Shown here in pieces: positions 22,072 through 35,986 of a stretch of DNA of 36,100 bases (positions are counted from its first letter, which is position 1; each line of letters opens with the position of its first letter). The DNA comes from a virus, in IMG/VR virus record IMGVR_UViG_3300005511_000043, positions 1 to 36,100 of that record. One strand, given 5' to 3'. The notes beneath the pieces were generated by a model. The model ran no database searches, was not told the DNA's origin, and worked only from the letters and a program-made list of their open reading frames with translations. A program made the translations under genes and the position numbers.

Positions 22072-22970
22072 GCAGCGGGCCTTTCGAGGTTAAATTCGCG
22101 GAGGATGTTTTTCGGGCAGATGGCTTGGAATCCGGGAGTTTCGGGGTGATTTCCCCAATGCCCATTCCACTCACCCGTCTCGCGCCAGCGCTTGAGCTTT
22201 CGGCGCCATTGGGCGTCTTCGTCGGCTGGGGCAGGCGCCGGCGGTGCAGCTGGAGCGAGCGACTGGGCTGGAGCCCAAGCCGGGTCGAAGCCGCGCCAGC
22301 CGCGCTCGATCATCAGATCAGCCGCTGAATTTGGGTTCTGAGATCTGGCTAGGCTCTTCGCGAGCAGCTTGGCGGCATGCGCTCCGAGCGGGGCCTTGAT
22401 GCGCTTCCGATGATCAACGATGGCCTGCGCTCGCTCGGGACTGACAACAGCCGTGAGTTCTTCCAGGACAAGCTGCCGCTCTGGCTTCGCCTTCTCGCCG
22501 GCATCGGGCGCGGCAGCGCTCCGAAGAGACGAAGTCTCTGAGGATATTTCCTTGGTTTTCCTGTCTTCTAATCTGTATCGCTCGCGTATCGGTTGCGTAT
22601 CGCCAGCCGTATCGGATGGCGTATCGCTTGGGAGACTGACTTTCTGATATTTGTCGTAATTGCAAATAGTTACGACGAGCGCGCCTGTATCGGATTGCGT
22701 CTCGATGATCGTATCGGTTTCGAGGCGCTTGAGAAATCGCTGCACCTTTCCGAGTGACCACTTCCAGCGCTCTGCCATGAAACGATAGGAGTGGGCGACT
22801 TGGCCTCGGGCCAGATCCACGACGACCGAACCAACGCGCGCCTTCCTTTGCCGATACGAGGCTTCGCCCACGAGCCAGATGAAGGCCTCCCGCTCGGTGA
22901 ACGGGTCCTTCGCGAAGCTCTCGTGATCCCAGATGCCCCGATCAACTGCAAAGACGCCGCGTTCGCTCAT
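22068..22970 (-). CDS. Replication-initiation-type protein (phage replisome organiser-like)
   Basis: The start at 22970 has GGAGG 6 nt upstream and overlaps the helicase stop in ATGA, giving 300 residues. Residues about 1-110 contain a winged-helix-like segment with the phage pattern GQVAHSYRFMAERWKWSLGKVQRFLKRLE, then TDTIIETQSDTGALVVTICNYDKYQ. Such domains bind origins and load the helicase in phage replication initiators. A Pro/Ser-rich linker follows, then a helical C-terminal part ending GGWRGFDPAW-type and a final FQAICPKNILREFN. The pairing with a DnaB-like helicase directly upstream supports this role. The exact partner and origin are not visible here. Confidence 0.7.
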   Translation of the reverse strand: MSERGVFAVDRGIWDHESFAKDPFTEREAFIWLVGEASYRQRKARVGSVVVDLARGQVAHSYRFMAERWKWSLGKVQRFLKRLETDTIIETQSDTGALVVTICNYDKYQKVSLPSDTPSDTAGDTQPIRERYRLEDRKTKEISSETSSLRSAAAPDAGEKAKPERQLVLEELTAVVSPERAQAIVDHRKRIKAPLGAHAAKLLAKSLARSQNPNSAADLMIERGWRGFDPAWAPAQSLAPAAPPAPAPADEDAQWRRKLKRWRETGEWNGHWGNHPETPGFQAICPKNILREFNLERPAA

Positions 22971-24391
22971 CGGCCACCTCCGAAGCGCGCTGCGACGATC
23001 GAGCGGCCTGGGTCGCACCACAAGTTGACGCGGCCGGTCTGCCCCTGTCGGCTCTTCTCGACGCCGACCTCTAGGTCGTTCTTGATCGCGTCCGCTTGTT
23101 CCTGCGCGGCTTCGTTGCCGCGACGGTAGGCTTCCGTCCGCGTGGCGTAATAGTGCTCGCGGTAGAGCATCAGGACGGCATCAGCAGCCTCTTCGATCTC
23201 GCCAGAGGCACGCAGGTCCGAGAGGTTCGGTCGCTTGTCATCGCGCTGCTCTACCGCTCGGGCGAGTTGGCAGCAGAGCATGACGGTGCAATCTAGGTTT
23301 TTCGCCATGACCTTGGCGGCGTTGGCGATCTCGCCGAGCTCGTTGACCTTGTTTCCCTGATATCGGCCGGATGGCTTTACCAGCATGGCGTGGTCAACGA
23401 TGGCGAGGCGGAGGCGCTTGCCCTGCTTGTCGAGCCGATCGGCATACTTCCTTCCCTCGACGAGGATATCGGCCATGCTAAGGCCGGGCGTATCGTCGAG
23501 GTGGAGCGGCTCCTTCTTCGATTCATGGGCGGCCCAGAGATAGCTCTCCAGTTCGTTCTCGGTTGCGTGCCCGGAGAGAACGTTACCGTAGGTTGGCCCC
23601 TTCCCGCCGAGACGCTCGCAAATGATGCGGGCAGCGATCTCCTTCGATGGGACCTCAAGCGAGAAATAGAGCGCGCCGTCACCACGCCGGCACATCTTCG
23701 AGGCGAGAGCAGCCCCCATCATCGTCTTGCCCTGCCCAGTCCGCCCGGCGAGAACGTAGAGCGCTCCAGGTGCCAGACCGCGCAACGGGAGATGGCGATC
23801 AAGGTCCTCAATGCCTGTCGATGGTGGTCGCTGGACCTCGCCGCGAAGCATCGCCTCGGCTTCGCGGCCGACCTGCTCTGCGATCGTCGATAGGCTTCCC
23901 CGGTTCGAGCGGCGCTGGTCATTGGCCGCGTCTCGAAGCTCATCGACCGCGTCGATCAGCCCCTTCGCCATGTTAGTGACGTCGGCTGTCGCGATCTGAC
24001 TGCGGGCGCCATCGGCCGCGTCGAAGATGCGTCGCAGCACCCAGGCGCTACGAATGATCTTGGCGTACTCCGCTAGAGAGCCGGGTGGAGCTGCGATTGC
24101 CGCCATGCGAGCCATCAGGTCATTAATCGTGCCTGACTCGCCCATCAGGAGAGATGCGCCGCCCTGAATGACGGTCCGGAAGTCGATGACACCGCCACGC
24201 GCGACGATATCCAAGGTGCGGCGGTAGAGGGCCGCCGCGGACATGTCGCCGAAATGCTCCTCGGTCAGGCCAGTCAGCATCACCGAGCTGATCGCCGGCG
24301 GCGCCATCAGCATGCCAGCCACAAGCGCCATCTCCGTTTCGGAGATTTCACGGAACCAGTCGGAGAATTGGTCTGGCGCGTGGACGTTCAT
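22967..24391 (-). CDS. DnaB-like replicative helicase
   Basis: The 474-residue protein has the two-domain layout of DnaB. Residues 15-130 form the N-terminal domain (SETEMALVAGMLMAPPAISSVM, LYRRTLDIVARGGVIDFRTV). The RecA-like core contains the Walker A AGRTGQGKT (215-223) and a Walker B LRLAIVDH with Asp333, followed by LARAVEQRDDKRPNLSDLRASGEIEEAADAVLMLYRE, the conserved helicase motif region with an arginine finger-type stretch. It ends QTGRVNLWCDPGRSIVA. The length is about that of DnaB (471 in E. coli). It unwinds DNA at the phage fork. It lies between an unknown 86-residue gene and the initiation-type gene, with overlaps at both ends. Confidence 0.9.
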   Translation of the reverse strand: MNVHAPDQFSDWFREISETEMALVAGMLMAPPAISSVMLTGLTEEHFGDMSAAALYRRTLDIVARGGVIDFRTVIQGGASLLMGESGTINDLMARMAAIAAPPGSLAEYAKIIRSAWVLRRIFDAADGARSQIATADVTNMAKGLIDAVDELRDAANDQRRSNRGSLSTIAEQVGREAEAMLRGEVQRPPSTGIEDLDRHLPLRGLAPGALYVLAGRTGQGKTMMGAALASKMCRRGDGALYFSLEVPSKEIAARIICERLGGKGPTYGNVLSGHATENELESYLWAAHESKKEPLHLDDTPGLSMADILVEGRKYADRLDKQGKRLRLAIVDHAMLVKPSGRYQGNKVNELGEIANAAKVMAKNLDCTVMLCCQLARAVEQRDDKRPNLSDLRASGEIEEAADAVLMLYREHYYATRTEAYRRGNEAAQEQADAIKNDLEVGVEKSRQGQTGRVNLWCDPGRSIVAARFGGGR

Positions 24392-27786: not shown

Positions 27787-27903
27787 TCAGGACCTCACGA
27801 TGACGGTCGCGATTAGAGCGGCCGGGGCGAGCACAAGGAGTGCTGCCATCGCCAGAACGGCGCCGATGACGGCGTCGACAAACATGTCCAGAAAGACATC
27901 CAT
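27787..27903 (-). CDS. Very small membrane protein
   Basis: The ATG at 27903 overlaps the stop of the first gene of the operon (TGATG) and has AGGAG 8 nt upstream. The 38-residue protein is mostly one hydrophobic segment (DAVIGAVLAMAALLVLAPAALIATVIV). No family is recognised. Such genes are common near early promoters of phages and may act on the host membrane. Confidence 0.5.
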   Translation of the reverse strand: MDVFLDMFVDAVIGAVLAMAALLVLAPAALIATVIVRS

Positions 27904-28148
27904 CAGACCGTCTCCTCCGCCGTATGCGGCCGCGTTACATCGGCCGGCCACTGCGCGCCGTTCGGCCAATTCGCCGAGAGCCAGGACAATCCACGCGCGA
28001 CGCGCCGGGCGCCCATGTCTCCACCTTCGCGAAGGTGTTTGAGCCGCGTCCCCTCCCCGAAAACGAGCGTTGAAACCCTCGATTCCGAGAGCTGTCGGGC
28101 CTCCGCGAAGGCGCTGACCACGGCGAGGAGTTCATCAATCGCGTTCAT
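27903..28148 (-). CDS. First gene of the leftward early operon, small HTH-type regulator candidate
   Basis: The preferred start is the ATG at 28148; another ATG at 28160 lies where the promoter -10 region is expected. The product is 81 residues, beginning MNAIDELLAVVSAFAEARQLSESRVSTLVFGEGTRLKHLREGGDMGARRVARGLSWLSANWP. This looks like a short helix-turn-helix (SESRVSTLVFG) and may be a Cro-type antirepressor. It is divergent from the repressor gene, with three operators between. If the promoter assignment is right its mRNA has almost no leader. The family is not certain. Confidence 0.6.
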   Translation of the reverse strand: MNAIDELLAVVSAFAEARQLSESRVSTLVFGEGTRLKHLREGGDMGARRVARGLSWLSANWPNGAQWPADVTRPHTAEETV

Positions 28149-28155
28149 GCGCGAA

Positions 28156-28185
28156 GACATGGAGCTATTTTTAGCTCGCTGTCAA
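28156..28185 (-). promoter_or_regulatory. Leftward early promoter overlapping an operator
   Basis: On the minus strand TTGACA (28185-28180) is a perfect -35. Following it by 17-18 nt is a weak -10-like hexamer at about 28161-28156 (CATGTC). Operator 28162-28177 lies between the two. The -35 is convincing and the -10 is poor, so transcription may start close to the ATG at 28148. Confidence 0.5.
28162..28177. promoter_or_regulatory. Repressor operator, perfect palindrome
   Basis: GAGCTATTTTTAGCTC is a perfect palindrome with 6 bp arms and a TTTT centre. It is identical to the copy at 29707-29722 and overlaps the leftward promoter. Confidence 0.85.
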
Positions 28186-28200
28186 GGCTATTCTTAGCCC
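28185..28200. promoter_or_regulatory. Repressor operator, variant
   Basis: AGGCTATTCTTAGCCC has palindromic arms GGCTA and TAGCC around TTCT. It is 23 bp from the first operator, centre to centre. A further half-site (TTTTAGCTC, 28205-28213) lies just downstream without a matching left arm. Confidence 0.75.
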
Positions 28201-28219
28201 GCGCTTTTAGCTCGCCTGC

Positions 28220-28235
28220 GGGCTAATTTTGGCTC
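28220..28235. promoter_or_regulatory. Repressor operator adjoining the repressor ATG
   Basis: GGGCTAATTTTGGCTC is an imperfect copy of the palindrome and ends immediately before the repressor start codon. Binding here would block repressor expression, so autoregulation is expected. Confidence 0.7.
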
Positions 28236-29009
28236 ATGGCTGCTGAGACTGAAAAGCTTCCCAATACGCTGATCGAACGGATCGATCGACGCCTGACTGC
28301 GACCGGGAAAAGCGCAAAAGGTGCATCTCGCGAGGCTGGGCTGAGCGAGAGTTTTATCAAGAATATCCGGCTAGGCGCTTCGAAATCCCCCCGTGCCGAT
28401 GGCCTTCAAGCCCTTGCGCGCGTCCTCGGGACAACGATCGATTGGCTTACAGAAGGTCGAGGAGCCGAGACGGCATCATCAGACAGCGGATTAACCGCGC
28501 CTGCATCTTCGACGGTCACGCCTGTGGACCTCGGTGAGCTTGTCCCGGTCAAGATCGCCGGCAAGGTGAAGGCCGGGGAGTTTATCTCGATCGAGGATCT
28601 CGGGGACTGGGAAGAGCCGGAAGAATTCCTCGACACGCGCGACCCGCGCTTCCCTCACGCTCGGCATCTCGGCTTCGAGGTCGAGGGGGACAGCATGAAC
28701 GCGCTTAAGCCGCGGCCGATCCAAGACGGCGACCGACTATCAGCGCTCGCATATGAGGACATCGCCGATCGCTACCCGCTACGCGACGGGATGATCGTTG
28801 TTGTCGAGCGAACCCGCCACGGCGGACACGAGCGCGAGTGGTCAGTGAAGCAGCTGGAGATCTACGAGGATCGGATGGAGTTCCATCCACGGTCCACCAA
28901 CCCGCGTTACAAGCCGATCATCATCAAGCGGGACAGCCTGGCTGACGACGGCGTGACCGTTGAGATCATCGCCATCGTCCGCCGGCTCGTGGCGGAATTT
29001 AATCTGTAG
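28236..29009 (+). CDS. CI/LexA-type phage repressor (S24 self-cleaving)
   Basis: The 257-residue protein has an N-terminal XRE-type helix-turn-helix (about residues 12-72, with SAKGASREAGLSESFIKNIRLG) and a C-terminal S24 peptidase domain. Catalytic Ser153 is in EGDSMN and Lys205 in WSVKQL. Two Ala-Gly bonds (108-109 and 113-114) lie in the linker where self-cleavage usually occurs, so the repressor should be inactivated by RecA after DNA damage. The start is at the ATG directly after an operator, which suggests autoregulation. The gene is on the plus strand between the two early operons. Its 3' end overlaps a minus-strand gene by 11 nt. Confidence 0.9.
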   Translation: MAAETEKLPNTLIERIDRRLTATGKSAKGASREAGLSESFIKNIRLGASKSPRADGLQALARVLGTTIDWLTEGRGAETASSDSGLTAPASSTVTPVDLGELVPVKIAGKVKAGEFISIEDLGDWEEPEEFLDTRDPRFPHARHLGFEVEGDSMNALKPRPIQDGDRLSALAYEDIADRYPLRDGMIVVVERTRHGGHEREWSVKQLEIYEDRMEFHPRSTNPRYKPIIIKRDSLADDGVTVEIIAIVRRLVAEFNL

Positions 29010-29295
29010 CGATCACGATGCGGCTCAGCGCCGCTTCGATCTCATCATGCCTCCGCCGCGAGGGTGGCGCGGCGTAAATGCCCCGGCCGCCCTCACCCGC
29101 CTCGCCAAGGATCGGGATGACCACCGGTTTTACGTCGATAGCGATGTCGGTGATCGCGAACGTGAGGTCGGGAAAGACTTCGCGCAGCCGCGCCTTGGTT
29201 CGCTCCTTATCCTCGGCCCAGGCTCGAACCTGGCCGGCCGGCGGGAACAGGCTGAATTCGGTTGCCTCGGGGAAGCCCTTGCACCAGTCCTTCAT
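28999..29295 (-). CDS. Hypothetical protein convergent with the repressor
   Basis: The ATG at 29295 has AGGAGG 7 nt upstream and overlaps the upstream stop (ATGA), giving 98 residues. It begins MKDWCKGFPEATEFSLFPPAGQVRAWAEDKERTKARLREVFPDLTFAITDIAIDVKPVVIPI. No family is recognised. Its end overlaps the repressor gene by 11 nt on the opposite strand, so strong transcription from here would run antisense to the repressor. Confidence 0.65.
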   Translation of the reverse strand: MKDWCKGFPEATEFSLFPPAGQVRAWAEDKERTKARLREVFPDLTFAITDIAIDVKPVVIPILGEAGEGGRGIYAAPPSRRRHDEIEAALSRIVIATD

Positions 29296-29531
29296 GCCAA
29301 AACCTCCTCGCACTTCCAGACAGTGACGGCGATCAGCCGGCCTATGAAGCTTTCGCAGCCGTCGCATTGCGCGCGGACGTTCTGCAGGAAGGCGCTGTCG
29401 AGCAGCTCCTCCACGTCGTATGGCGCATCGTCGACATCAGGGACATCGAGGCGCTTGAACACGTTCCGTTGGCAGTTTGTGCAGCGGTAGTGGAGCTTGA
29501 AGCTCGCACGAATTCCGGCGTCTTCCGGCAT
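29292..29531 (-). CDS. Small zinc-ribbon-like protein
   Basis: The 79-residue protein contains two Cys pairs, CTNC (about 17-20) and CDGC (about 56-59), which fit a zinc ribbon, and a beta-rich end (GRLIAVTVWKCEEV). It starts MPEDAGIRASFKLHYRCTNCQ. No family is assigned. It is the first gene of a two-gene minus-strand unit that runs toward the repressor and starts 148 nt left of the rightward-promoter operators. No promoter for it is clear. Confidence 0.65.
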   Translation of the reverse strand: MPEDAGIRASFKLHYRCTNCQRNVFKRLDVPDVDDAPYDVEELLDSAFLQNVRAQCDGCESFIGRLIAVTVWKCEEVLA

Positions 29532-29647
29532 GACCTGATACTCCGAACTCTGTTGATGATGCCCTGTCGCAGCAGCCTCTTTGTTCTGCTTGCGTTCTCA
29601 TTTGAGCCATGCCGTCAGCAGAGAGTCGATATGCGACTTGGCGGCTG

Positions 29648-29664
29648 CTGACTCTGGGAGTCAG
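29648..29664. repeat. Isolated 7 bp inverted repeat
   Basis: CTGACTC TGG GAGTCAG is a perfect inverted repeat with a 3 nt centre and differs from the repressor operators. It may be the site of another regulator, for example a Cro-type protein. A hairpin in RNA is also possible, but no T run follows. Confidence 0.5.
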
Positions 29665-29678
29665 TAGAATGGCAGGGC

Positions 29679-29694
29679 GAGATATTTTTAGCTC
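29679..29694. promoter_or_regulatory. Repressor operator, variant, upstream of rightward promoter
   Basis: GAGATATTTTTAGCTC matches the consensus except one base in the left arm. Its centre is 28 bp from the next operator. Confidence 0.75.
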
Positions 29695-29701
29695 TTTACC
29701 C

Positions 29702-29730
29702 TTGACGAGCTATTTTTAGCTCTGCATACT
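29702..29730 (+). promoter_or_regulatory. Rightward early promoter
   Basis: TTGACG (29702-29707) and CATACT (29725-29730) are spaced 17 bp apart. An operator fills the spacer. The predicted start near 29737 precedes the first rightward gene. Confidence 0.75.
29707..29722. promoter_or_regulatory. Repressor operator within the rightward promoter
   Basis: GAGCTATTTTTAGCTC is the perfect palindrome, identical to 28162-28177. It lies between -35 and -10, so a bound repressor would block RNA polymerase. Confidence 0.85.
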
Positions 29731-31929: not shown

Positions 31930-32736
31930 ATGACCGATTCCGCAATCACCGTCCATCACGGCGAGATCGAACCATCGAGGGAGATTGCTGCGGCGCCGGA
32001 TACCGCCACCTCCAACCCGATGCAGTTGCTGGCGGGCGCAATCAGCCAGGGCGCTAGTCCTGAATCTTTGGAGCGCTTAATGGCGATGCAGGAGCGGTGG
32101 GAGGCCAACCAGGCTCGCAAGGCGTTCGACGCCGCGATGTCTGCGGCGAAGGCCGAGATCCCTGTGATCGTGAAGAACCGAATGGTCGGATACGAAAACC
32201 GGGATGGGAAGAGCAGCACTAGCTACTCCCACGAGGACCTGGGCGAGATCGCGCGGACCGTCGACCCGATTCTTTCGAAACACGGGCTCTCCTACCGCTT
32301 CCAGACCACGTCGGAGATCAACCAGCCGATCGAGGTTACCTGCATCGTTGCTCATCGCGATGGGCACAGCGAGCGGAACACGCTGAAAGCCGGGCGAGAC
32401 GACAGCGGCAAGAAGAACGCCATCCAGCAGATGGGGAGCACGATCACCTATCTGCAGCGATACACGCTGAAAGCGGCTCTGGGCCTCGCCGCTGCGCGAG
32501 ATGATGACGGCAAGGCGTCAGGCAGCGCCGAAGACTTCATCTCGGATGAGCAACTCGACACGCTTCAGACGCTGATCCGAGAGACCGAAACCCGGATCGG
32601 GGAATTCCTCATGGCGATCGGCTTCGAGTCGCTGAGCGATATCCCGACGACAAAGTTCGATGAGGTCCTGGCCAAGCTGGAGAAGAAGAAGCGTCTCCTC
32701 GCAGAGCGCAGGAGCAAGGAGACCTCCGATGCTTGA
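31930..32736 (+). CDS. erf: ERF-family single-strand annealing protein
   Basis: The 268-residue protein matches the ERF family of phage recombinases. It has SLERLMAMQERWEANQARKAFDAAMSAAKAEIPVIVKNRMV, then SYSHEDLGEIARTVDPILSKHGLSYRFQTTSE, VTCIVAHRDGHSERNTLKAGRDDSGKKNAIQQMGSTITYLQRYTLKAALGLA, the central hallmark with the QxxGSxxTYxxRY-type core. It anneals complementary single strands in phage recombination and circularisation. The C-terminal part is helical. It overlaps the exonuclease gene by 8 nt, the common pairing of annealing protein and exonuclease. Confidence 0.93.
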   Translation: MTDSAITVHHGEIEPSREIAAAPDTATSNPMQLLAGAISQGASPESLERLMAMQERWEANQARKAFDAAMSAAKAEIPVIVKNRMVGYENRDGKSSTSYSHEDLGEIARTVDPILSKHGLSYRFQTTSEINQPIEVTCIVAHRDGHSERNTLKAGRDDSGKKNAIQQMGSTITYLQRYTLKAALGLAAARDDDGKASGSAEDFISDEQLDTLQTLIRETETRIGEFLMAIGFESLSDIPTTKFDEVLAKLEKKKRLLAERRSKETSDA

Positions 32737-33349
32737 GGTCTTCGACATCGATCAGGGCAGCGATGCTTGGCTCCGCGCCAGGGCCGGCATCCCAACGGCG
32801 AGTGAGTTCGCCACCATTCTCGCCAAAGGGCGCAGCGGTGGCGAGAGCAAGACGCGCCAATCCTACATCTGGACGCTTGCGGGCGAGCTCATCACGGGCG
32901 AGCCGACCGAGAGCTTCAGCAACGCTCACATGGAGCGGGGCAAGGCGATGGAGGCTCAGGCTCGGGCCATGTACGCCTTCGAGCGCGACGCCCGATGCAC
33001 GCCTGTTGGCTTCATCCGGAATGGCCGTGCTGGGGCATCGCCCGACAGCCTTGTCGGCGAGACTGGTCTTGTCGAGATCAAGACGAAGCTCCCCAAACTC
33101 CTGATCGAGTGCATCCTGCGTGACGAGTTCCCGCTTGAGCACAAGGCTCAAGTCCAGGGACAGCTTTGGATCAGCGAGCGCGAGTGGTGCGACATCGCCG
33201 TATTCTGGCCGGGCATGCCACTCTTCGTGAAGCGCGCCTATCGCGATGAAGACTACATCGCCGACCTCAGCCGGGCCGTCTCCATCTTCAACGCCGAGGT
33301 CGACATGGTCGTCGACAAGATCCGCGCGTACGACAAGAGGGCTGCGTGA
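32729..33349 (+). CDS. YqaJ/lambda Exo-type 5'-3' exonuclease
   Basis: The ATG at 32729 overlaps the ERF stop and gives 206 residues. It begins LEVFDIDQGSDAWLRARAGIPTASEF, the typical start of YqaJ-family enzymes (Q-G-S-x-x-W-x-x-x-R-x-G-x-x-T-A-S). The catalytic core has MERGKAMEAQARAMYAF, ASPDSLVGETGLVEIKTK with Asp106, Glu116 and Lys118, and HKAQVQGQLWIS. It resects double strands to produce single-strand tails for ERF. The gene is followed at TGATG by the NinB-like gene. Confidence 0.92.
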   Translation: MLEVFDIDQGSDAWLRARAGIPTASEFATILAKGRSGGESKTRQSYIWTLAGELITGEPTESFSNAHMERGKAMEAQARAMYAFERDARCTPVGFIRNGRAGASPDSLVGETGLVEIKTKLPKLLIECILRDEFPLEHKAQVQGQLWISEREWCDIAVFWPGMPLFVKRAYRDEDYIADLSRAVSIFNAEVDMVVDKIRAYDKRAA

Positions 33350-34217: not shown

Positions 34218-34555
34218 GCAAACGCTGCATCTACACAGCCGACGACGCAACTCGCTTCTTTAAGCCGAGCGCCGGCAAGGCATATCGCCCTTCAAACGGG
34301 ACTGAAGGCGAAATATTCCAGGAGACGTGGTGCGCTCAATGCGAGGCCGATCGCGGGTTTCGCGAGGACCATGAGCGGTTTGACGGTTGCCCGATCATCG
34401 CCAACGCTATGGCCATGTCGATCGATGATCCCGCCTATCCGAAGGAGTGGGTCTATCGCAGCGACGGACAGCCCATGTGCTCATCCTTCGTCGAGATTGG
34501 CACGGCACTCACGCCGCGCTGCCCGGCCACCATCGATATGTTCTCGGGGGGCTAA
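34214..34555 (+). CDS. Hypothetical protein with a Cys pair
   Basis: The GTG at 34214 has AGAGGAG 7 nt upstream and overlaps the previous stop. The 113-residue protein begins SKRCIYTADDATRFFKPSAGKAYRPSNGTEGEIFQETWCAQCEADRGF and has a CAQC pair plus three further cysteines, suggesting metal binding. No family is recognised. It precedes the excisionase candidate by 2 nt. Confidence 0.65.
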   Translation: MSKRCIYTADDATRFFKPSAGKAYRPSNGTEGEIFQETWCAQCEADRGFREDHERFDGCPIIANAMAMSIDDPAYPKEWVYRSDGQPMCSSFVEIGTALTPRCPATIDMFSGG

Positions 34556-34557
34556 CC

Positions 34558-34866
34558 ATGGCCCGCGCACGTCTAATGCTCGTCAGCGAAATCCTGGGCG
34601 ACGGCACACTCGCCGAGGCCGGCCGGCTGATGAACATCAGCGAAGCTGACATGCGCGCCAAGCTGGCGGCTCTGATCGCGCGTGGTTTTCCCCAGCCCGA
34701 CGACACCACCGGGATGATCGACCTCGATGCCGTTGTTCAGTGGCGCCGCTTGCGGAACCCATCCCTATTCGGCCTGAATAGCGACCAGCCTGGCGCACAA
34801 GGCGCCGGCTCGGTCATTGCGGACCGATTGAAGAGGATGCGTGCCAATGCCCAGGCGAGGCGGTGA
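34558..34866 (+). CDS. Excisionase candidate (AlpA/MerR-like helix-turn-helix)
   Basis: The ATG at 34558 gives 102 residues; a longer in-frame version would overlap the previous gene by 110 nt. It begins ARARLMLVSEILGDGTLAEAGRLMNISEADMRAKLAALIARGFPQPDDTTGMIDLDAVVQWRRLRN, a winged helix-turn-helix with a GFPQP hinge and a final VVQWRR helix as in AlpA/MerR-type regulators and excisionases. The location directly before the integrase strongly suggests Xis, which would bind near the attachment site and promote excision. Confidence 0.65.
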   Translation: MARARLMLVSEILGDGTLAEAGRLMNISEADMRAKLAALIARGFPQPDDTTGMIDLDAVVQWRRLRNPSLFGLNSDQPGAQGAGSVIADRLKRMRANAQARR

Positions 34867-34870
34867 CGCG

Positions 34871-35986
34871 ATGAAGGTGCCCTACTACTACGAGCGCAAG
34901 GGACGCGCCTATTGGGAGCCGCGAGGGAAGGTGCCCCCGGGCTTCGCTGCGCGCCCGTTGGGACCCGCCGGCGATCAAGCACGGATGGTCGCAGCCAAGC
35001 TCTACAACGCCATGTGGAAAGCTCGCCGCGGCGGCGCCGGAGACGAGCAGGACAACAAGCCGAAGTACCCGAAGGGCTCGATCGGCGAAGCGTGGGAGCT
35101 CTACCGCCGCACGCCCGAATGGCCGAAGAAGCAGCCGCGCACCCGCGAGGAATGGGATCGAGTCTGGGCCCGGATCGAGCCGGTGTTCGCAGACCAGAGG
35201 CCGAAGACCATCACGCTCATCGACGTGAGCGAGTGGCGCCAGCTTGTCGAGGAGACGGTGTCTCTTCGCGAGGCGCATCGCTGCATCAAGATCTGGCGTG
35301 CGCTCTGGCAGGTCATGGCTGCGATGAAATATTGCGACGCTGAGAACGATCCGTCGTTCGGCGTCCGCAACACCGAGCCGGCGCCGCGGTCCCAGGAATG
35401 GCAGCTCGCGGAGATCGTTCGGATCGGTAAGCGGGCATGGCGCGAGGGCTACAAGGGCCTCGCCGCGATCCTCGCGGTGATGTGGGATGGCATGATGTCG
35501 CCGGTCGACGCGCGGACCATCAAGCCCGGCCAGCGGATCAGGCACGGCAACCTGCAGGCATTCGCCATCACTCGCGGCAAGACAGGCGCCCTCGCCTACG
35601 CACCGATCACACGGCGCGCAGCGAAGGTCATGGATGCCTATCTCGCTGATCGGAAGGTGGTCGACCTGGAGCGGCCGTTGTTCAGGACGCGGCGGGATTC
35701 GGACTACCGGAAGAACAGCCTCGCTGAGGACTTTCGGGACATCAGGAATCTCGTTTACCCGGGAGACACAAGGACCCTCACCGACATCCGTCGGTCGGGC
35801 GCGCTCGAAGCGTCGGCCGGCGAGGTCGACCCCAAAGCGCTATCCGATGTGATGGGTAACACGCTGGCTCAATCGAAGGCTTTGCAGCGCACTTACACGC
35901 CTGCTCAGATCGCGACGGCGTCCACCGTTCCTGAAGCTAGACGACGCGGCCGGCGGGCAAGGTCCGCGAACGAAAGCAGCTCGTAA
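34871..35986 (+). CDS. int: Tyrosine integrase, divergent catalytic residues
   Basis: The ATG at 34871, 4 nt after the excisionase candidate, gives 371 residues; an ATG 30 nt earlier overlaps that gene and is an alternative. Residues about 65-165 form the core-binding domain (SIGEAWELYRRTPEW). The catalytic domain has MWDGMMSPVDARTI (Arg215), RGKTGA (Lys237), LTDIRRSG (Arg307), MGNTLAQSKALQRTY (Tyr342). The usual first Arg position in the L-T-G-x-R-x-x-E box is replaced by M-M-S-P-V-D-A-R, the His before Arg307 is Thr-Asp, and the second His is Asn330. Similar degenerate boxes seem to occur in other alphaproteobacterial phage integrases. The protein should integrate into the adjacent tRNA gene. 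Confidence 0.85.
   Translation: MKVPYYYERKGRAYWEPRGKVPPGFAARPLGPAGDQARMVAAKLYNAMWKARRGGAGDEQDNKPKYPKGSIGEAWELYRRTPEWPKKQPRTREEWDRVWARIEPVFADQRPKTITLIDVSEWRQLVEETVSLREAHRCIKIWRALWQVMAAMKYCDAENDPSFGVRNTEPAPRSQEWQLAEIVRIGKRAWREGYKGLAAILAVMWDGMMSPVDARTIKPGQRIRHGNLQAFAITRGKTGALAYAPITRRAAKVMDAYLADRKVVDLERPLFRTRRDSDYRKNSLAEDFRDIRNLVYPGDTRTLTDIRRSGALEASAGEVDPKALSDVMGNTLAQSKALQRTYTPAQIATASTVPEARRRGRRARSANESSS

Follow-up and report, generated by a model that had tools for sequence, protein, structure and literature searches.

One set of predicted operators for both early operons and the repressor gene: a probable lambda-plan switch in a Bosea prophage

Can one set of operator sites serve both early operons of a prophage and the gene of its own repressor? 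This question is raised by the DNA around the repressor gene of the virus record IMGVR_UViG_3300005511_000043 in IMG/VR. The window analysed here (36,100 bp) is the entire record, and the close relatives of its phage are prophages in Bosea (Alphaproteobacteria). A sequence-only reading had proposed that five copies of a 16-bp palindrome make up a lambda-like switch acting on both early operons and the repressor. The analysis reported here supports, with high confidence, a Bosea prophage immunity region built on the lambda plan, in which the repressor CI would bind five G[A/G]GCTA-N4-TAGC[T/C]C sites and control both early operons as well as itself.

Five 16-bp sites with arms of the form G[A/G]GCTA and TAGC[T/C]C around a T-rich centre are present in the window. 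GAGCTATTTTTAGCTC occurs exactly at 28162-28177 and at 29707-29722, with one mismatch at 29679-29694 and with three at 28220-28235. These four matches at up to three mismatches compare with 0.08 expected, and four were reached in none of 100 shuffles. The fifth site, AGGCTATTCTTAGCCC (28185-28200), differs from GAGCTATTTTTAGCTC at 4 of 16 positions; it was too divergent for the pattern and was detected by a matrix. When a matrix was built from the three repressor-proximal sites, the rightward pair ranked first and fifth in 36 kb, and two downstream sites of equal quality were found in 0 of 300 shuffles. The next-ranked place, at 34549, scored below all five operators. The five copies are thus the five best matches in 36 kb, which confirms their earlier count, the identity of the two perfect copies and, within the window, their restriction to this region. 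The word palindrome was shown to fit the 6-bp arms (GAGCTA/TAGCTC) and not the 4-bp centre (TTTT), which is asymmetric. This T-rich centre points the same way in every site of the window and in related phages of the class, despite the opposite directions of the promoters.

Three of the sites precede the repressor gene. O1 (OR1-like; GAGCTATTTTTAGCTC, 28162-28177), which is kept in four related phages, lies within the spacer of the leftward early promoter (PR-like; 28157-28185, minus strand). This promoter is made up of TTGACA (28185-28180), 17 bp and a weak -10 (CCATGT) assigned by spacing; a TTGAC-type -35 is found at the same place in most relatives. O2 (OR2-like; AGGCTATTCTTAGCCC, 28185-28200) overlaps the leftward -35 by one base. 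O3 (OR3-like; GGGCTAATTTTGGCTC, 28220-28235) adjoins the repressor ATG at 28236 and covers the likely -10 of the repressor's own promoter (PRM-like), a possible GCTAAT at 28222-28227 on the plus strand, 8 nt before the ATG. This promoter is a weak match as a whole and lacks a good -35. The spacing is 23 bp for O1-O2 and 35 bp for O2-O3. The stretch between O2 and O3 (28205-28226) holds two further elements kept in the four closest phages: a conserved half-site, TTTAGCTC, and a hairpin resembling a terminator (28207-28226). The half-site could be read as a possible sixth one (TTTTAGCTC, 28205-28213) that the sequence-only reading had left unmentioned. Both elements were set aside as functional candidates because a further relative, L094, is without them.

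The other two sites were blind matches of the OR matrix at the rightward early promoter (PL-like; TTGACG-17 bp-CATACT, 29702-29730, plus strand). OL1 (GAGATATTTTTAGCTC, 29679-29694) lies just 5' of the -35, and OL2 (GAGCTATTTTTAGCTC, 29707-29722) lies between the -35 (29702-29707), with which it has one base in common, and the -10 (29725-29730). No other consensus-like promoter was found in the region, where 0.6 were expected in shuffles, and this one is supported by its conserved position: a similar promoter stands in the same place in the 13 other loci examined. OL1 in the relatives usually lies 15.5-17 bp before the start of the -35. The OL spacing of 28 bp corresponds to about 2.7 helical turns, so that a same-face arrangement is not obvious, and no third OL site was found among the best matrix matches, leaving three sites at OR and two at OL. 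These placements bear out what had been described for the three sites before the repressor, one of them adjoining its ATG and one over the leftward promoter, and for the two at the rightward promoter.

Most relatives with a clear TTGAC-type -35 have their first start codon 7-9 nt after the -10 (with a 17-bp spacer), L038 and L058 being exceptions. From this spacing, the start of the cro-position gene (27903-28148, minus strand; 81 aa, phrog_7669) was moved from 28160 to 28148, 9 nt after the predicted -10, which suggests that the cro-like mRNA is leaderless. The repressor ATG usually adjoins O3, except in L038 and L058 as O3 was placed there, and none of 14 loci has a Shine-Dalgarno motif before it. 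In the three closest relatives, the start codon must lie downstream of O3, which itself contains an in-frame TAA. An ATG that adjoins O3 without a ribosome site indicates that the repressor mRNA is probably leaderless as well.

The repressor gene itself (28236-29009, plus strand) encodes a protein of 257 aa that was assigned by Pfam, PHROG, profile and fold as a 434/P22-type helix-turn-helix domain followed by Peptidase_S24. The matches include Pfam S24 (1e-6, above cut-off), HTH_3 (slightly under cut-off) and the PHROG transcriptional repressor family (7.7e-23). By profile, the DNA-binding domain is closest to the solved repressors of 434 (1.7e-7) and P22 (c2, 3.3e-5). The fold agrees; this comparison used the DNA-binding domain only (pLDDT roughly 80-89), the model of the whole protein being poor (mean pLDDT 63.6, below 50 at residues 183-240). 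A113 and S153 (in GDSM) are invariant in the repressor alignment, and a candidate cleavage pair, A113-G114, and a lysine, K205 in SVKQLE, were read by eye. By analogy with this family, we infer that CI may undergo RecA-induced self-cleavage.

Is the same arrangement found in related phages? The sample was composed of 15 loci, the window and 14 relatives. For each locus, OR palindromes were picked by hand from the intergenic sequence and turned into a matrix, which was used to search the DNA downstream of the repressor. The two best downstream places formed a pair 28-41 bp apart in 13 of the 15 loci (12 of 14 relatives and the window), a result limited by the manual choice of OR, in which OL was not used, and by an earlier automatic repeat search that had already exposed some OL copies in L039, L040 and L044. 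Equal or better pairs were obtained in 0 of 300 shuffles for 12 loci and in 1 of 300 for one. At L037, an OL pair (5664 and 5689, around TTGACA-17-TATTAA) was missed by the matrix and recognised by eye. No OL pair was found within 4.7 kb downstream of the repressor in the distant relative L063, where three GGTA-type OR sites lie beside the repressor (L063:4911-4982), perhaps as a one-cluster version of the switch. Cross-scoring of the matrices yielded seven operator classes, of which the TGTGCGA and TGTACGA classes are partly alike.

Within the class of the window, four other phages carry the same 3+2 set with spacings of 23/35 and 28 bp, although O1 and OL2 lie between 1,545 and 3,074 bp apart. 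Among four close phages, 1 of 48 positions varies in the OR operators (none in O2). By comparison, the O2-O3 linker varies at 4 of 19 positions and the cro-like gene at 30 of 81 third codon positions. The centre of O2 lies 43.5 bp before the repressor ATG in the window and 42-48 bp before it in relatives. Searches of more distant relatives with the window motif gave essentially no matches; this was at first taken to speak against conservation, a view that was overturned when the OR palindromes of each relative were used for its own search. An initial automatic scan for repeats had accepted only near-perfect palindromes and so missed the sites of most loci. The exact 16-mer was also found in 32 stretches of IMG/VR, one copy each, of which about 14 (more for AT-rich sequence) are expected by a rough chance estimate with an assumed collection size. 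Most of these stretches were attributed to chance on that estimate, and only L025 (same contig as L036) had near-copies in the window pattern.

The strongest evidence comes from two natural swaps. L037 matches the window over the C-domain and the genes that follow before OL (28509-29003 and 29197-29636) with 86-87% nucleotide identity, and the C-domains of the two repressors are 98% identical. Their DNA-binding domains share only 30% identity, and the cro gene, OR and OL are all different. L094 shows the reciprocal pattern: its nucleotide matches are confined to 27941-28393 (cro, OR and DNA-binding domain; 70%) and 29679-29723 (OL; 89%), the DNA-binding domains are 62% and the C-domains 24% identical, and nothing else is common between OR and OL. 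These reciprocal swaps indicate that the operator sequence follows the DNA-binding domain at both clusters, which would make CI or its cro partner the reader of the five sites. Together with the blind prediction of OL from OR, they give strong comparative support to the earlier proposal of one operator set for both early operons and the repressor. The L037 repressor gene is followed by a second, diverged repressor 3' end (L037:5067-5126; 77% to window 28951-29010), possibly a recombination scar. A literature search on the exchange of DNA-binding domains in prophage repressors found no reports.

The sites might instead serve chiefly as operators of the cro-like protein (27903-28148) or of some other phage regulator, with CI bound at just a subset. 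Because the cro-like gene travels with the CI DNA-binding domain in both L037 and L094, the comparison cannot separate the two proteins as readers. The predicted fold of the 81-aa protein weakly resembles helix-turn-helix domains (Foldseek E 0.5 or worse; best match VIA, Z 5.2); beyond phrog_7669 and these generic matches, it could not be placed clearly in any family by sequence or fold, and a search of IMG/VR for further homologues recovered only an already known contig. L037 has a YdaS/Cro-type protein in the same position (Pfam YdaS, 4.1e-11). CI and Cro use common sites in lambda-type systems, so operators for Cro would not exclude CI, and the adjoining of O3 to the repressor gene and the position of O2, which is that of lambda OR2, point to self-control by CI. 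Sites used mainly by a regulator other than CI are therefore considered unlikely.

The same swaps bear on whether the palindromes act as RNA hairpins, either terminators or attenuators, and not as protein-binding sites. The terminator-like hairpin predicted at 28207-28226 would fit such a role, but it is missing from L094, which retains the operators. Four of the five sites lie within or just upstream of promoter hexamers, ahead of any transcript start, and site sequence tracks the DNA-binding domain of the repressor, which runs counter to a function in RNA. The probability of this explanation is judged to be minimal.

Host genomes provide a further comparison. A motif borrowed by the phage from a host regulator, such as an SOS box, would be in line with the general habit of prophages of using host signals, and nothing beyond this habit favours it. 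In two genomes of Bosea that carry related prophages (5.7 and 4.9 Mb), every place within one mismatch of the 14-bp core AGCTATTTTTAGCT was a prophage operator. A looser pattern gave 21 and 23 matches, fewer than the 51 and 53 of a reversed control pattern. The scan of host genomes that had been suggested earlier thus revealed no enrichment outside the prophage and no excess at unrelated loci in these two genomes. The window operator is also unlike GTTC-N7-GTTC, the alphaproteobacterial LexA box, and this counts against an SOS box. A host origin of the motif is accordingly regarded as extremely improbable.

Binding by CI is the reading that best fits these comparisons, and a mechanism can be outlined on the lambda model. 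The N-terminal helix-turn-helix domain of CI would bind all five sites. At O1 and O2, CI would block transcription of the cro-like/replication operon from the leftward promoter. When bound at O2, it would probably also activate the repressor's own promoter by contact with polymerase, as at lambda OR2, and its binding at O3, over the repressor -10 and touching the ATG, may limit repressor output; both roles are proposed from position. Bound at OL1 and OL2, CI would silence the recombination (Erf/exonuclease) operon at its rightward promoter. The switch may be completed by competition from the cro-like protein, looping between OL and OR and RecA-dependent cleavage, as suggested by knowledge of the family.

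The leftward operon runs from OR and includes the cro-position gene, a methyltransferase gene and a DnaB-like helicase gene (22967-24391, minus strand). The rightward operon includes genes for an Erf-type annealing protein (31930-32736, plus strand) and an exonuclease (32660-33349, plus strand), and it ends with an integrase-like gene (34841-35986) that was assigned by position and by eye and had no Pfam or PHROG match at E 0.01. Two genes on the minus strand lie between the repressor and OL and run toward the repressor. One (28999-29367; 122 aa), opposite to the repressor, has homologues in relatives, and the other (29292-29531; 79 aa, CxxC-rich) is kept in nearly all relatives, even with differing repressors and operators. 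Among the late genes is one for a contractile tail sheath (1.6e-150), which indicates a myovirus-like virion. This differs from the overall lambda-like virion genes (non-contractile tail) taken as a mark of lambdoid descent. The switch is predicted to work like that of lambda, and the phage is not classed as lambdoid.

Taken together, the loci likely represent an alphaproteobacterial prophage family that shares one switch chassis. At OR this chassis would have three sites, O2 lying about 43 bp ahead of a cI ATG that lacks a Shine-Dalgarno motif; at OL it would have two, placed at a strong rightward promoter. The cI and cro mRNAs would be leaderless. The DNA-binding domain, cro, OR and the distant OL appear to be replaced together, giving at least seven repressor-operator pairs. 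Apart from its new operator sequence, the switch is biologically ordinary, and more interest attaches to the set of matched repressor-operator pairs on a shared chassis. The approach predicts operators for related prophages, including phi3LM21, from sequence alone. The matched relatives also provide a natural set of DNA-binding domains and partner sites that is useful for studies of specificity and for asking how two operator clusters separated by more than 1 kb come to be exchanged together.

How does this switch compare with known systems? Lambda (J02459) has the same gene order, mirrored in the window, with an S24-type repressor gene between two operator clusters, a cro-position gene divergent from cI and three OR sites. 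The centre of OR2 lies 42 bp before the cI ATG in lambda, close to the value for O2, and OR1 and OR2 are 24 bp apart compared with 23 bp here. The lambda plan and an operator sequence of its own thus stood from the earlier description of a lambda-like switch with new sequence and layout, whereas the layout is not new, since the same order is found in lambda and phi3LM21. Nor does a repressor placed amid two operons 1.5 kb apart set the window apart, as lambda cI also lies between OL and OR, with the recombination operon beyond; the distance is 2,407 bp from OL1 to OR1 in lambda and 1,545 bp from O1 to OL2 in the window. Lambda differs in its operator sequence, in having three OL sites rather than two, in a gap of 10 bp between OR3 and the ATG, which O3 adjoins in the window, and in an OR2-OR3 spacing of 23 rather than 35 bp. 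The cro-position proteins are unrelated, and the genes of the window between cI and OL face opposite to cI, unlike in lambda. The repressors of 434 and P22 resemble CI in their DNA-binding domain by profile and fold, and their operator sequences differ from those of the window.

Two rhizobial phages offer further comparisons. Genes of the Sinorhizobium phage phi3LM21 (MF614628) have been annotated as CI and Cro-like in the same order as in the window, in a report that mentions no operator (PMC5537653), and no published operators for this phage were found in the literature examined. It has a CI homologue (46%) with a Cro-like gene opposite; cI is followed by two leftward genes, and a rightward operon reaches the integrase. 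The present analysis places a two-cluster operator layout there as well, with candidate operators GGATTTTAAATCC and GGAAATTATTTCC and, at OL, GGAAAATAAATCC and GGATTTAATTTCC (L058:8583-10007). These belong to a different class (GGAT-N5-ATCC), and the DNA-binding domain is 29% identical to that of the window. The C repressor of Rhizobium phage 16-3 has operators oL1, oL2, oR1 and oR2, and a 2025 survey of phiLM21-like Sinorhizobium prophages found no operators matching those of lambda or 16-3 (PMC12429752). Phage 16-3 shares an alphaproteobacterial host and two operator clusters with the window and has another operator set, as compared by description only. What is specific to the window is its operator sequence, its two OL sites, an O3 that adjoins the ATG, the 35 bp between O2 and O3 and the two reverse-facing genes between cI and OL.
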